Source: Rickettsiales bacterium | Lineage (GTDB): Bacteria; Pseudomonadota; Alphaproteobacteria; Methylaequorales; Methylaequoraceae | Assembly (NCBI GenBank): GCA_028407765.1 | Contig: JAOOJU010000006.1 | Coordinates: 1-34,107 of the forward strand | Direction of reading: 5' to 3' | DNA length: 34,107 nt | Shown here: piece by piece, positions 29,121-34,107 of the stretch | How the letters are laid out: every line of letters begins with the position of its first letter | Numbering within the stretch: the first letter of the stretch is position 1 | Position numbers and translations under genes: made by a program | Notes under the pieces: model-generated | The model's input: only the letters and a program-made list of their open reading frames with translations | Databases searched by the model: none | What the model was told of the DNA's origin: nothing

Positions 29121-30032
29121 TCAAATATTGAGCAATGCCTCTGAAAATTCTTTTGCTTTAAAATCAATTAAATCCTCTTTGGCTTCACCCACTCCCAGAC
29201 TTATTATGGGAATTTTCAGTGTTTCTCCAATCGGAATAATTGCACCGCCTTTTGCAGTTCCATCTAACTTCGTGATAATTAAACTACTAATTTTACAAAT
29301 TTCATTAAAAACTTGAGCTTGCTTAATTGAGTTCTGACCAGTATTACCATCAAGTACAAGAATAGTTTCGCCTGGAGAATCATTATCTAACTTTTTTAAA
29401 ACTCTGATGATTTTTGACAACTCATCCATTAAATTAGATTTATTATGTAGTCTTCCAGCTGTATCAATTAATAAAATATCGAGATTCTTTTTTTTTGCTT
29501 CTTCATATGAAGAAAATGCCAATGAAGCTGGATCAGTATTTTCAACTGATGAAAAAAAAGTAGAGCCAGTTTTTTTTGACCAAATTTCAAGTTGTTCTAT
29601 TGCCGCGGCTCTAAATGTATCTGCTGCAACGATACCAACTTTTTTTTTTAATAAAGAAAACTTATATGCTAATTTTCCAACTGTTGCTGTTTTACCCACA
29701 CCATTAACTCCAACAATTAAAATCACAAAGGGTTTTTTTTTGAATTGAATTTCTTTTTCCAATGGCTTTAAGATATTTATCATCGATTGTGAAATATTTT
29801 TTTTCACAGATTCAGGACTTGTATCTACAAATTTTGATTTTCTTATTTTTGCAATAATTTGTTCTGAAAGAGACACTCCAATATCTGAAGTAATTAACAG
29901 ATCTTCAAGTTCATTCAAAGTTTCATCATCAATCTTCTTGCTTTTTAAAATCGTCTTAATACCATCTCCAATTTTACTGGATGATTTTGTTAATCCTTTT
30001 TTTAAATTTTTAAACCAAGAAAAAACCATCAT
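29121..30032 (-). CDS. ftsY: Signal recognition particle receptor FtsY
   Basis: A 303-residue SRP GTPase with helical N domain (residues about 1-95) and G domain. GTPase motifs are GVNGVGKT (108-115), DTAGR (190-194) and TKLDG (264-268). The acidic A domain of E. coli FtsY is absent; the protein starts with a short amphipathic, basic region (MVFSWFKNLKKG) suited to membrane contact, typical of compact FtsY. It receives ribosome-SRP complexes at the inner membrane, pairing with Ffh encoded at 32,271. Start is at the ATG at 30032 overlapping the mtaB stop as ATGA; an ATG at 30029 follows directly. Confidence 0.95.
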   Translation of the reverse strand: MMVFSWFKNLKKGLTKSSSKIGDGIKTILKSKKIDDETLNELEDLLITSDIGVSLSEQIIAKIRKSKFVDTSPESVKKNISQSMINILKPLEKEIQFKKKPFVILIVGVNGVGKTATVGKLAYKFSLLKKKVGIVAADTFRAAAIEQLEIWSKKTGSTFFSSVENTDPASLAFSSYEEAKKKNLDILLIDTAGRLHNKSNLMDELSKIIRVLKKLDNDSPGETILVLDGNTGQNSIKQAQVFNEICKISSLIITKLDGTAKGGAIIPIGETLKIPIISLGVGEAKEDLIDFKAKEFSEALLNI

Positions 30033-31288
30033 AAAACCTTTGCAATTAGTGATTTTTCATTAAAACTTTTAAATTTAACCTCTATCAATTCACCATTCAT
30101 TTTTTTAATCTGGTTTTTATTTAAATCAGGTATGGATAATTTGAAATAATCATCAGTATAACTTAAATTTGACCCCTCAAATAAAATTTTATTTATTTTT
30201 CCGACTTTTTCCTTCATAATTTCTAATTTTATCCAAGAACCAAGTTTTCTTAATTGACTTGCTCTATAATTTATAATTTTTCTCTCTACCTGAGGCATCT
30301 TAGACGCTGGTGTGCCAATTTTAGGAGAAAAAGGGAAAATATGTAAATTTGAAAAGTTACATTGATTTATACATTCATAAGTATTCTGAAAATTCTGTTC
30401 AGTTTCCGTAGGAAAACCAACTATTATGTCGGCCCCGAATGTAATGCTTGGTCTTTTCTTCTTTAGGTAGTTACATAGATTTAATAAATCTGTCCTATTA
30501 TGGCGTCTTTTCATTCTTTTCAGTATCATATTATCTCCAGATTGAGCTGAAAGATGTATATGAGGCATTATCTTTTTTTCATTAGTTATCAAATCCAAAA
30601 GATCCGCATCAATTTCTGCAGGATCAATAGAAGACAATCTCAACCTGTTTAAATCAGGCAACATATTTAATAGCCTTTTTATAATTTCTCCCAGTTTAGG
30701 TTTTCCGGGAAGATCATTTCCGTATGATGTTATATCAACCCCTGTCATGATGATTTCTTTGTAACCTGCTTTTAAAAACTTTTTGGTTCTTGTAACTATT
30801 TCGCTTAATGGCAAACTAACAGAGTCTCCCCTTCCATACGGTATGATACAAAATGTACATCTATGATCACATCCCTGTTGAATTTGCAATAACGCACGAG
30901 TTTTTTGATTAAATTTCTCTAATGGTTCAGGGAAAACACTTGTTTTCATTTTTGCCTCATGAACTAAATTACCTAATTTATTTTGATAAGAAATCTTTTG
31001 GGTTTTAAATTGATTTTTTATAATTTCATCAACCTCATTCATGTCTAGAAAAGACTTTGGATCAACATGTGATGCACAACCTGTTACAATTATTTTATTT
31101 TTTGGATTCTGTTTTTTTGCTTTTCTAATTTCACTTTTAGACTTTTGGACAGCATTGTTTGTGACTGCACAAGTATTAATAACTATCGTAGACTTAACAT
31201 TATTTTTTACCAGAATATCAGAAATTACTTCTGATTCATAAGAGTTCAATCTACAACCTAAATTTATTACTGACGATTCATTCTTCAT
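30029..31288 (-). CDS. mtaB: tRNA t6A37 methylthiotransferase (MtaB-type)
   Basis: A 419-residue radical-SAM methylthiotransferase. The N-terminal domain binds one Fe-S cluster through C12, C40 and C71 (in NLGCRLN, INTCAVT and VTGCAS). The radical-SAM motif CDHRCTFC gives C140, C144 and C147. The NLGCRLNSYESE start is typical of MtaB, which makes ms2t6A at position 37 of tRNA, rather than MiaB or RimO. The TRAM domain at the C-terminus is short. It overlaps both neighbours by 4 bases (ATGA at dapF-mtaB and mtaB-ftsY), so all three are translated from one message. Confidence 0.92.
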   Translation of the reverse strand: MKNESSVINLGCRLNSYESEVISDILVKNNVKSTIVINTCAVTNNAVQKSKSEIRKAKKQNPKNKIIVTGCASHVDPKSFLDMNEVDEIIKNQFKTQKISYQNKLGNLVHEAKMKTSVFPEPLEKFNQKTRALLQIQQGCDHRCTFCIIPYGRGDSVSLPLSEIVTRTKKFLKAGYKEIIMTGVDITSYGNDLPGKPKLGEIIKRLLNMLPDLNRLRLSSIDPAEIDADLLDLITNEKKIMPHIHLSAQSGDNMILKRMKRRHNRTDLLNLCNYLKKKRPSITFGADIIVGFPTETEQNFQNTYECINQCNFSNLHIFPFSPKIGTPASKMPQVERKIINYRASQLRKLGSWIKLEIMKEKVGKINKILFEGSNLSYTDDYFKLSIPDLNKNQIKKMNGELIEVKFKSFNEKSLIAKVL

Positions 31289-32130
31289 TTTAAACTCATT
31301 CGTATATTTTCTATATTAACTACTCCATTATATACCTCGGAAACAGGACCAGTCATCAATAAATGATTATCACTGAGAAAAGATATTTCCAAGTCACCTC
31401 CCGTCATCCTAACAATGGAGTTCCTTTCAGTTAGATTATTATTATATGCGGCAATTAATGATGCACAAGCACCTGTTCCGCAAGCGTCTGTAAAGCCAGA
31501 ACCTCTCTCATAAACTTGCAATTCAATTAGTTTTCTTGATACTATTTTTGCAACATTAACATTTACCCCCTGAGGAAATATTTTCATTTTACTTACATTA
31601 ACACAATCCTCTTTTATTATTTCCCTTTCTATTTGATCGCAAAAAAAAACAACATGCGGATTACCTACACTTACAGAAAATCCATTTTTTAAATGTTTAA
31701 GTCCAATTCCTAGATCCTGAGTATCCATGGGATGCCTTAGGGGAATCTCATCCCAATTAAACTTGGCAATTCCCATATCCACGCTTATTAAACCATTTTC
31801 TAATTCTTCCACATCAACCAATCCACCTTTTGTTTCAAGCACTACATTCTTAGTTTTTGATTCTTTTATTATAAGTTTCCCTACACATCTAGTGGCATTT
31901 CCACAACTCTCTGCCTCTGAACCATCTGAATTAAAAATAAGAATTTGGAAATCCGCTATTCCGTCTTCGGAGTTTTTTATTAAAACTATCTGGTCGCAAC
32001 CAATCCCTAACCTTCTATTGGACAAATATTTAATCTCATCAGCCTCTAGATTAAGATTAAAATTTCTTGTATCAATGATAATAAAATCATTCCCAAGTCC
32101 ATTCATTTTTACAAAAGATAAATTTTGCAT
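31285..32130 (-). CDS. dapF: Diaminopimelate epimerase
   Basis: A 281-residue enzyme converting LL- to meso-diaminopimelate for lysine and peptidoglycan synthesis. Its two catalytic cysteines are C76 (in ESCGNATRC) and C217 (in DACGTGACAS). The N-terminal FVKMNGLGNDFIIID block is diagnostic. The residue before the second cysteine block differs from the enterobacterial GxGET form (GSGFTDACG), a change I believe is common in alphaproteobacteria. It is the first gene of dapF-mtaB-ftsY and is divergent from ffh across a 140-base gap. Confidence 0.96.
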   Translation of the reverse strand: MQNLSFVKMNGLGNDFIIIDTRNFNLNLEADEIKYLSNRRLGIGCDQIVLIKNSEDGIADFQILIFNSDGSEAESCGNATRCVGKLIIKESKTKNVVLETKGGLVDVEELENGLISVDMGIAKFNWDEIPLRHPMDTQDLGIGLKHLKNGFSVSVGNPHVVFFCDQIEREIIKEDCVNVSKMKIFPQGVNVNVAKIVSRKLIELQVYERGSGFTDACGTGACASLIAAYNNNLTERNSIVRMTGGDLEISFLSDNHLLMTGPVSEVYNGVVNIENIRMSLK

Positions 32131-32270
32131 AGAGTTAAAGTAATTAAATTTATAAATAACTTTAAGAACTAATATTTTTTTGTTATAAAAACAATAATTA
32201 TTTTAGTCAGTCCACGAGTTTCGTGCACTGGCTTTTTTTGTGTTGAGCAATTTAACTTGAAAATTATTTT
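32131..32270. other. Divergent intergenic region between dapF and ffh
   Basis: This 140-base gap, the longest in the window, must hold the dapF promoter (minus) and the ffh promoter (plus). The left 75 bases are almost pure A/T with possible -10 elements such as TATAAA at 32151 and 32184. The right part carries a GC-richer hairpin described separately. No conserved SRP RNA motif (GGAAG/AGCAG loop) is seen, so I do not call a 4.5S RNA here. Confidence 0.6.
32205..32239 (+). terminator. Intrinsic-terminator-like hairpin in the ffh leader
   Basis: Left arm AGTCAGT-C-CACGA (from 32205) pairs with TCGTG-C-ACTGGCT (to 32233) around a short GTT loop: 12 pairs including one G-T pair, with a single C-C mismatch, then a run of T residues to 32239. 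The T tract is on the plus strand only. No recognised plus-strand gene precedes it, since dapF is divergent. It may end a short RNA of at most about 75 bases or act as an attenuator in the ffh leader. Confidence 0.65.
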
Positions 32271-33635
32271 ATGTTTAGTTCTTTAAGTGAAAAAATAACT
32301 CAAACTTTTAAGAAATTAAAAGGACAGGGTAAGATATCTGAATCGTCTCTTAATAATGCTTTGAGAGAAATAAGAATAGCTTTATTAGAAGCTGATGTAG
32401 CATTATCCACTACCAAAGATTTTATTGAAAAAATTAAAGAAAAAGCACTAGGTCAGGAGGTTCTTAGTAGTGTTACGCCGGATCAGATGGTTGTAAAAAT
32501 TGTAAATGATGAATTGGTCCAATTATTAGGCTCCGCTAGCTATGAATTAAACTTAAAATCGAAACCTCCTGCAATAATCCTAATGGCTGGTTTACAGGGA
32601 TCAGGAAAAACAACATCTTCAGCAAAATTAGCAAAAAAAATAACAGAAAAATATAAAAAATCAGTTTTAATGGCTTCTCTAGATATTTATAGACCTGCGG
32701 CACAAAAACAACTCGAAACACTTGGAAATCAGAATAATATTGAGACACTTGAGATATTTCCAACACAGAAGCCTTTGGAAATTGCTCTTAGAGCAAAAAA
32801 AACTGCAGAAACAGAAAACTTCGATGTTCTGATCCTGGATTCAGCTGGTAGAAATCATATTGATTTAAAAATGATGAATGAAATAGCAGAAATTTCAAAA
32901 AAAATTCAAATAATAGAAACTCTTCTCGTGGTAGACTCAATGGCTGGACAAGATTCAGTTAATACTGCAAAAAGTTTCTCAGAGAAAGTTAACATTACTG
33001 GAATTATCCTAACAAGAGTTGACGGAGATAGCAGAGGGGGAGCTGCTTTATCCATGAAATCGGTTACTAACCAACCAATAAAATTTCTTGGAATAGGTGA
33101 AAAAATTGAAGATTTAGAAGAATTTCACCCAGACAGAATTGCAAGTAGGATTTTAGATATGGGTGATGTAGTTTCCTTAGTTGAAAAAGCATCTGCTGAA
33201 ATTGATGATGAAGAAGCAAAAAAAATACAAGGAAAGTTCCTAAAGGGAAAATTTTCTCTATCTGACTATGCAAAACAGTTAGATCAAATTACCAAAATGG
33301 GTGGTCTTCAAGGATTGATAAAGTATCTTCCAGGAATGGCAAACTTAAAAGAGAAATTCAATGAATCTTCGGGTAAAGAGAAAATGATCGAAATTCAGAA
33401 AGCTATAATTTCATCAATGACAAAAAGAGAAAGATTTTTTCCTGATATAATCAAAGCCTCAAGGAAAATAAGAATTGCTAAAGGCTCAGGATCTTCAGTT
33501 CAGGAAGTTAATAAGCTTCTAAAGCAATTTAAGAAAATGAGTCAGATGATGAAAAAAATGGGTAAAAATAAAAATATAGAAGCCATGATGAATTCTAATC
33601 AACTTGGTGACATTAACTCGCTATTAAAAAAATGA
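32271..33635 (+). CDS. ffh: Signal recognition particle protein Ffh
   Basis: A 454-residue SRP54 protein with N domain (1-95), GTPase domain and methionine-rich M domain (about 320-440, ending with [10 protein letters not shown]). GTPase motifs are GLQGSGKT (107-114), DSAGR (190-194) and TRVDGD (248-253). The arginine in the last motif, where FtsY has lysine, fits my memory of alphaproteobacterial Ffh. It binds 4.5S RNA and signal sequences of nascent inner-membrane proteins. A weak ribosome-binding site precedes the ATG. The hairpin upstream may affect its expression. It is followed after 25 bases by rpsP. Confidence 0.97.
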
Positions 33636-33660: not shown

Positions 33661-34107
33661 ATGGCCGTAGCATTAAGATTATCAAGAGGAGGTTCTAATA
33701 AAAGACCATTTTATAGAATAGTGGCTGCAGATATAAGAAGCCCAAGAGATGGAAGATTTATTGAAAGACTTGGAACTTATAACCCAATGAAACCTAAAGA
33801 CCACCCTGAAAGACTCTCTATTAAAAAAGAAAGAATAAAATATTGGTTGTCAGTCGGAGCGAAACCAACAAATAGAGTTGCAAAATTTCTCGCGCTTGAA
33901 GGTATGGTTGAAAAACCAAAAATATATGAACAAACTAAACAAAACAAACCTAGGGCTAAGACTGTTGAAAAATTAAAGGCAAAAGAAGAAAAAATGAAAA
34001 ATGCTGAATCAGCTGCTGAAACACCAGCTCCTGCTGCTGCTGAAATACCAGCTCCTGCCGCTGCTGAAACACCAGCTCCTGCCGCTACTGAAACACCAGC
34101 TCCTGCC
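33661..34107 (+). CDS. rpsP: 30S ribosomal protein bS16 (3' end beyond window)
   Basis: The frame opens with [11 protein letters not shown] and continues through [18 protein letters not shown] and LGTYNP, the typical bS16 core of about 80 residues, which helps assemble the 30S subunit body. An AAAGGA ribosome-binding site lies 8 bases before the ATG. After the core comes a lysine-rich linker (about 90-115) and then an Ala/Pro/Glu repeat still in frame at the window edge (149 codons so far). Alanine-rich bS16 tails occur in alphaproteobacteria. In many bacteria rimM, trmD and rplS follow, but those would be outside. Confidence 0.96.
34012..34107 (+). repeat. 24-bp tandem repeat in rpsP, four copies to window edge
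   Basis: Four consecutive in-frame copies begin at 34012, 34036, 34060 and 34084, each encoding AAETPAPA with single variations (T to I in copy two, A to T in copy four). The copies differ by only one to three bases. The GC content is well above that of the rest of the window. The array may continue past the edge. Confidence 0.92.

Follow-up and report, generated by a model that had tools for sequence, protein, structure and literature searches.

A compact ffh-motif hairpin as a candidate attenuator in the leader of an alphaproteobacterial ffh gene

Results

Genes and promoter-like signals around the dapF-ffh gap

The window, by which we mean the whole 34,107-nucleotide stretch of DNA that was analysed, closes with two genes on the plus strand: ffh, encoding the SRP protein, and rpsP, encoding ribosomal protein S16 (Table 1). 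S16 has a repeated tail rich in Ala, Pro and Glu (ETPAPAAAE..., at about 34000-34107), which continues beyond the end of the window. On the other side of the gap lies a run of three minus-strand genes, dapF, mtaB and ftsY (29121-32130), with a four-base overlap between successive frames, and NCBIfam agrees with the names of all five genes. Because ftsY, the SRP receptor gene, sits in a run that diverges from ffh, the starts of the SRP-protein and SRP-receptor transcription units probably both fall within one 140-base gap. A search for tRNA and tmRNA genes returned none in the window.

Family comparison brings out an extended -10 element in this gap: the pattern TGnTATA lies 21-27 bases 5' of the stem described below in all 22 distinct sequences of the window's family, a set assigned from family handles and from ffh identity (62.8-70.7%, window included). 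The weak -35-like stretch was read by eye, and its counterparts in the family sequences, read in the same way, are CTTTAAG, CTTTATG or CTTTTAG. Given the conserved -10 element and its usual spacing, transcription of the leader is predicted to begin at about 32196, some 9 bases before the stem.

Table 1 Features of the dapF-ffh region, with positions in the window
Feature	Position	Strand	Basis
dapF, divergent neighbour, first gene of dapF-mtaB-ftsY	31285..32130	-	NCBIfam
Weak -35-like TTTAAG, 17 bases before the -10 hexamer	32161..32166	+	Read by eye
Extended -10 element TGTTATAAA	32181..32189	+	Family comparison
P2 hairpin, outer stem	32205-32211/32227-32233	+	Sequence, fold, covariance model, relatives
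P2 hairpin, C.C mismatch	32212/32226	+	
P2 hairpin, inner stem (loop 32218-32220)	32213-32217/32221-32225	+	
Seven-T tract at stem end	32233..32239	+	Sequence, family comparison
Remaining ffh 5' leader, T tract to ATG	32240..32270	+	Sequence
ffh, SRP protein	32271..33635	+	NCBIfam TIGR00959, 567 bits
rpsP, ribosomal protein S16, directly after ffh, runs off the window	33661..34107	+	NCBIfam

A stable hairpin followed by a T tract lies before ffh

The hairpin occupies 32205-32239 of the plus strand, 74 bases from dapF (32131-32204). Its stem-loop (32205-32233) reads AGTCAGT-C-CACGA-GTT-TCGTG-C-ACTGGCT, with T continuing up to 32239, and forms twelve pairs (7+5) around a single C.C mismatch; one of the pairs is a G.U, between T32207 and G32231, and the first of the seven T pairs with A32205. 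The original prediction, which had described a 12-pair stem with one mismatch and a seven-T tail 31 bases before the ffh start, is thereby confirmed. Folding of the RNA from 32200 to 32242 gives -14.5 kcal/mol with a z of -5.3, a value that none of 200 shuffles equalled, and the G+C content is 55% in the stem and 29% in the window as a whole. When both strands of the window were scanned for T runs of at least five bases preceded by hairpins at -5 kcal/mol or better, this hairpin ranked top of the 28 terminator-like candidates (-14.0 kcal/mol; the second best reached -11.6). With a stable stem and a T tract immediately after it, the hairpin has the makeup of an intrinsic terminator; the site is absent from the list produced by a consensus terminator scan of the window, a miss that is probably due to the C.C mismatch.

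The hairpin corresponds to the core of the ffh motif

In its accessible text, the study of Meyer et al. 2009 (PMC2704228) defines the ffh motif as one hairpin with a bulge, located ahead of ffh and carrying two almost unvarying cytosines in that bulge; it occurs in many Alphaproteobacteria, Pelagibacter ubique among them, in the space that separates ffh from a divergent dapF. The same text regards the motif as likely cis-regulatory, reports its transcript among metatranscriptome small RNAs, and notes that regulation of the SRP protein, be it transcriptional or translational, had not been described by then. The window has each of the structural hallmarks: a bulged hairpin on the same strand and directly upstream of ffh, two cytosines (32212 and 32226) equivalent to those of the bulge, and a dapF gene that diverges from ffh as it does in Pelagibacter ubique; its closest named relatives, moreover, are labelled Alphaproteobacteria. 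Judged by its structure and place, the window's hairpin is the core of this already described motif, and its assignment to the alphaproteobacterial ffh leader motif (Rfam RF01793), as a compact variant, is well supported. The hairpin had earlier been called an orphan, a label that does not hold, since the element belongs to ffh and matches the ffh motif of Alphaproteobacteria.

A covariance model built from 22 hairpins, all of them from outside the window's family to avoid circularity, matches 32205-32239 at 42.3 bits (E 4.3e-10, a rough value), and at E 10 neither the window nor the 1.13 Mb assembly contains another match. RF01793 itself is absent from the Rfam matches to the window at the gathering threshold, to 32080-32330 at E 10 and to the genome at E 10, and the hairpin does not reach the RF01793 cut-off of 35 bits. 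Three features set the window's element apart from RF01793: it has only A/T bases before the stem in place of the 5' GGGAUCG stretch, it carries a C-G pair beside the C.C mismatch where RF01793 has A.C, and it ends in a seven-T tract, a form that the Rfam model does not detect. Five weak Rfam matches to 32080-32330 at E 10 look like chance.

The stem covaries and its C.C mismatch is conserved

In the window's family, the hairpin occurs in the window itself, in every one of the 16 fetched relatives whose ffh is complete (L002-L018) and in one further locus (L201) where ffh is represented by its start only. Within this family one inner pair varies between A-U, G.U and G-C (L001, L010, L011). Across 38 aligned sequences, 98.2% of the cells pair and 10 of the 12 pairs vary at both positions, which none of 500 shuffles reached; the selection rule for the rows of alignments A1-A3 required pairing and C.C, so the percentage paired is flattered.

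Less biased than these alignments are the covariance-model search and a hairpin rule without the demand for C. The latter found the geometry in 136 of 158 distinct 160-base stretches upstream of ffh, 130 of them with C.C, in a set that is not random (many loci were fetched through model or Rfam matches, or are close relatives; loci L060-L080 and L083, which are not alphaproteobacterial, were excluded). In control stretches, taken only from hairpin-bearing loci at 540-700 bases upstream and lying mostly in other genes, a hairpin of the same geometry occurred in 8 of 132 and C.C in none. Because C.C accompanies nearly all of the upstream hairpins and is absent from the controls, the mismatch is most likely a selected feature. 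The comparison with relatives, which had been put forward as a check on the hairpin, thus finds a stem that is conserved, covarying and tied to ffh, and for this reason the leader-element part of the earlier proposal (a short RNA or an attenuator of ffh) is right; the short RNA is weighed in the Discussion.

The hairpin is widespread in the class

In an even draw of 289 genomes of the class, the hairpin model finds a match in 192 at E 0.1, where some matches will be due to chance; the matches listed, 150 rows from 149 genomes, have E values no higher than 2.2e-6. With RF01793, 99 of these genomes match at E 0.1, about half as many as with the 35-position hairpin-only model, and 58 score above the RF01793 cut-off; at E 0.1 RF01793 matches none of the four genomes of the window's family included in the draw; compared with the hairpin-only model, Rfam's model is narrow. 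For placement, the 150 listed RNA rows (149 of the 192 genomes) were set against the 150 ffh rows listed out of 258 genomes with an ffh match, and among the matches listed in genomes that also have a listed ffh, 97 of 98 precede ffh on the same strand at a distance of 12-116 bases. The exception (G030:C63) is 95 bases from a contig end, and the genome has another copy before its ffh. When 200 genomes were drawn from the phylum, the model matched 42, of which 41 are members of the class; the one outside it gave a weak match (E 0.0026). Control of SRP synthesis by a leader attenuator had been thought unusual at the outset; the hairpin is class-wide and not an isolated oddity.

Of 53 genomes with a listed ffh and no listed model match, 40 were fetched. 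Among 109 class loci with an ffh start, 91 carry the hairpin (83 by the rule and 8 by the model only, L195 being weak), and 17 with enough upstream sequence have none by rule or model; the remaining locus, L196, is counted among the 18 without a hairpin and is uninformative, with only 35 bases upstream. The hairpin is therefore dispensable for some members of the class. The hairpin-less loci are L162, L163, L164, L168-L171, L179, L180, L182, L184-L186, L188-L190 and L199, and several of them come from small genomes.

According to the accessible text of Meyer et al. 2009 (PMC2704228), the motif is absent from Caulobacterales and Rhodospirillales. We find the C.C hairpin at L081, on a contig with a Caulobacterales label, and at L047, whose contig bears the label Rhodopila. 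Rhodopila is now placed in Acetobacterales and was formerly classed in Rhodospirillales. Both rows were in the model, so their support comes from structure and place and not from the score.

The T tract and the flanks of the hairpin vary between lineages

Among the 8 bases after the stem, 6-7 are T in all 22 distinct sequences of the window's family. Elsewhere the tract is less regular: with duplicates collapsed and L062 and L162 left out as false matches, 34 of 101 non-family sequences have at least 5 T of 8 and 24 have at most 2, and T is enriched at +3 to +6 after the stem. These 101 leaders also share a nnTTTTGnGTTTGG-like block at fixed spacing 3' of the stem (bases +1 to +14), in which T reaches a frequency of 0.84 at +10 and +11, a conservation that exceeds the need of a terminator tail. 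If the downstream UUUGG block is paired with a near or a far stretch upstream, the energy is equalled by 82 of 2000 (near) and 5 of 2000 (far) permutations; as shared G+C content can give such energies, this pairing was set aside and is not claimed.

On the 5' side, the window's lineage lacks both the GGGAUC part and an upstream helix that is common in other members. In the non-family sequences, the 40 bases 5' of the hairpin have a mean fold z of -1.46, with 38% below -2, compared with -0.15 and -0.05 in two controls and -0.32 in the window's family. The two helix pairs beside a CC-GG core are of compensating types, with 35 and 36 of 53 sequences paired against shuffle means of 21.1 and 22.8 and maxima of 33 and 36, while pairs 3 and 4 are not conspicuous against the shuffles (27 and 24 of 53, means 20.6 and 22.1); in this test just 15 control stretches satisfied the same rule. 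The helix is unpaired in RF01793, and the accessible text of Meyer et al. 2009 describes a single hairpin. It often takes the form GGUCC...GGAUC or CUCC-GA-GGAG directly 5' of the ffh-motif hairpin, as in L143, L149, L152 and L157 and, by eye, in L020, L086, L089, L148 and L154.

Discussion

For the window's lineage an attenuator is, we infer, the simplest reading, since the parts of a terminator lie about 44 bases past the predicted start and before ffh. Across the class, conservation of C.C is stricter than that of the T tract, which makes it most likely that the stem is a recognition site for some cellular factor. Intrinsic termination alone is an unlikely general function, given that the stem, the C.C mismatch and the position are conserved where the T tract, often weak outside the window's family, is not. 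Taken together, we consider it somewhat probable that the element is a cis-acting, specifically recognised ffh leader which, in this lineage, doubles as a promoter-proximal terminator or attenuator, with partial termination, readthrough and a supply of SRP set by a factor. In such a scheme ffh, with rpsP behind it, would be transcribed from about 32196 and the nascent leader would fold into the hairpin at about +10 to +38; a fraction of the polymerases would halt within the T tract, at about +44, releasing an RNA of about 44 nt, and the others would continue into ffh. Binding of the factor to the hairpin would alter readthrough (or stability) and in this way set the supply of SRP protein. RNA signals reported for relatives, namely the metatranscriptomes, the sm5 arrays and the Bartonella RNA-seq cited below, also count in favour of this reading.

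As to what the factor might be, no antiterminator structure or ligand was identified for the window's leader. The Rfam matches to 32080-32330 at E 10 include no SRP RNA family, so that autoregulation by Ffh through mimicry of SRP RNA finds no support there. Gene order does not decide between Ffh and S16, because rpsP stands behind ffh with or without the hairpin (in the fetched flank of 91 of 91 hairpin-bearing and 15 of 18 hairpin-less loci).

The main competitor of attenuation, less probable in our estimate and yet credible, is a leader hairpin that is recognised or protects the 5' end of the ffh mRNA, acting on stability or translation, with the T run incidental in an A+T-rich genome. Stem-loops that protect 5' ends lie close to the transcript start, and a start some 9 bases ahead of the stem, as predicted, would agree with this, as would the retention of the stem and C.C in lineages whose T tract is weak or broken. 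An incidental T run fits poorly with a tract that is uniform throughout the window's family and begins right at the stem end, and with the hairpin being the best terminator-like site of the window. It is nearly inconceivable, by comparison, that the hairpin is a chance inverted repeat, in view of its fold z and of its conservation and covariation in relatives. The terminator-like anatomy would equally suit a plain terminator that insulates ffh from transcription through the dapF region; we hold this to be very improbable, as dapF, mtaB and ftsY all point the opposite way, a promoter-like element lies between dapF and the hairpin, and a conserved C.C mismatch would be unexpected in a plain terminator.

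An RNA of about 44 nt, or longer if started further up, would also be expected if the hairpin closed a separate trans-acting short RNA and ffh started downstream of it; a short RNA was one of the two readings of the original prediction. Rfam does class RF01793 as an sRNA gene, the transcript is among the metatranscriptome small RNAs of PMC2704228 according to the accessible text, and sm5 of Sinorhizobium meliloti is presented in the available part of a 2008 study (PMC2573895) as an independent sRNA of 108-258 nt with array signal. We judge this improbable for the window: only 31 bases lie between the T tract and the ATG, 97 of 98 placed matches, among the matches listed, stand directly before ffh, and in the window's family the RNA would contain little beyond the hairpin, the bases 5' of which vary.

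sm5 is also the closest counterpart in position. The available part of PMC2573895 places this candidate in the dapF< >ffh gap, the same gap as the window's hairpin, and gives it a sigma-70-like promoter, a predicted Rho-independent terminator and an array signal, with no Northern; its predicted 108-258 nt differ from the approximately 44 nt deduced here. With Meyer et al. 2009 and sm5, as far as their accessible text goes, both the short-RNA and the cis-regulatory readings are already in print. The literature searched, whose scope left out most subscription journals, yielded no functional study of the ffh motif.

In ribosomal-protein operons, structured leader attenuators precede genes for RNA-binding proteins. 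The window's arrangement, a structured leader before ffh with rpsP behind, would resemble these only in how it works, and it differs from them in having no identified alternative structure or known binding protein. More speculatively, and with a probability that we put well below even, the hairpin might be part of a class-wide feedback switch for SRP supply, in which a dedicated protein (Ffh, S16 or another) reads the invariant C.C hairpin and sets the passage of polymerase; the window would then hold a minimal version, consisting of promoter, hairpin, T tract and about 44 transcribed bases. The interest of this variant lies in a leader reduced to one hairpin and a T tract, in which the C.C hairpin appears to be the indispensable part, and its clean terminator anatomy makes attenuation of SRP-protein synthesis directly testable.

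Two further records touch on this RNA. A row labelled RF01793 in a Mesorhizobium table (PMC5596092, in the part available) refers by its label to a plasmid and may not be at ffh, and the accessible text of a study of Bartonella bacilliformis (PMC7717549) reports an ffh leader RNA in RNA-seq.
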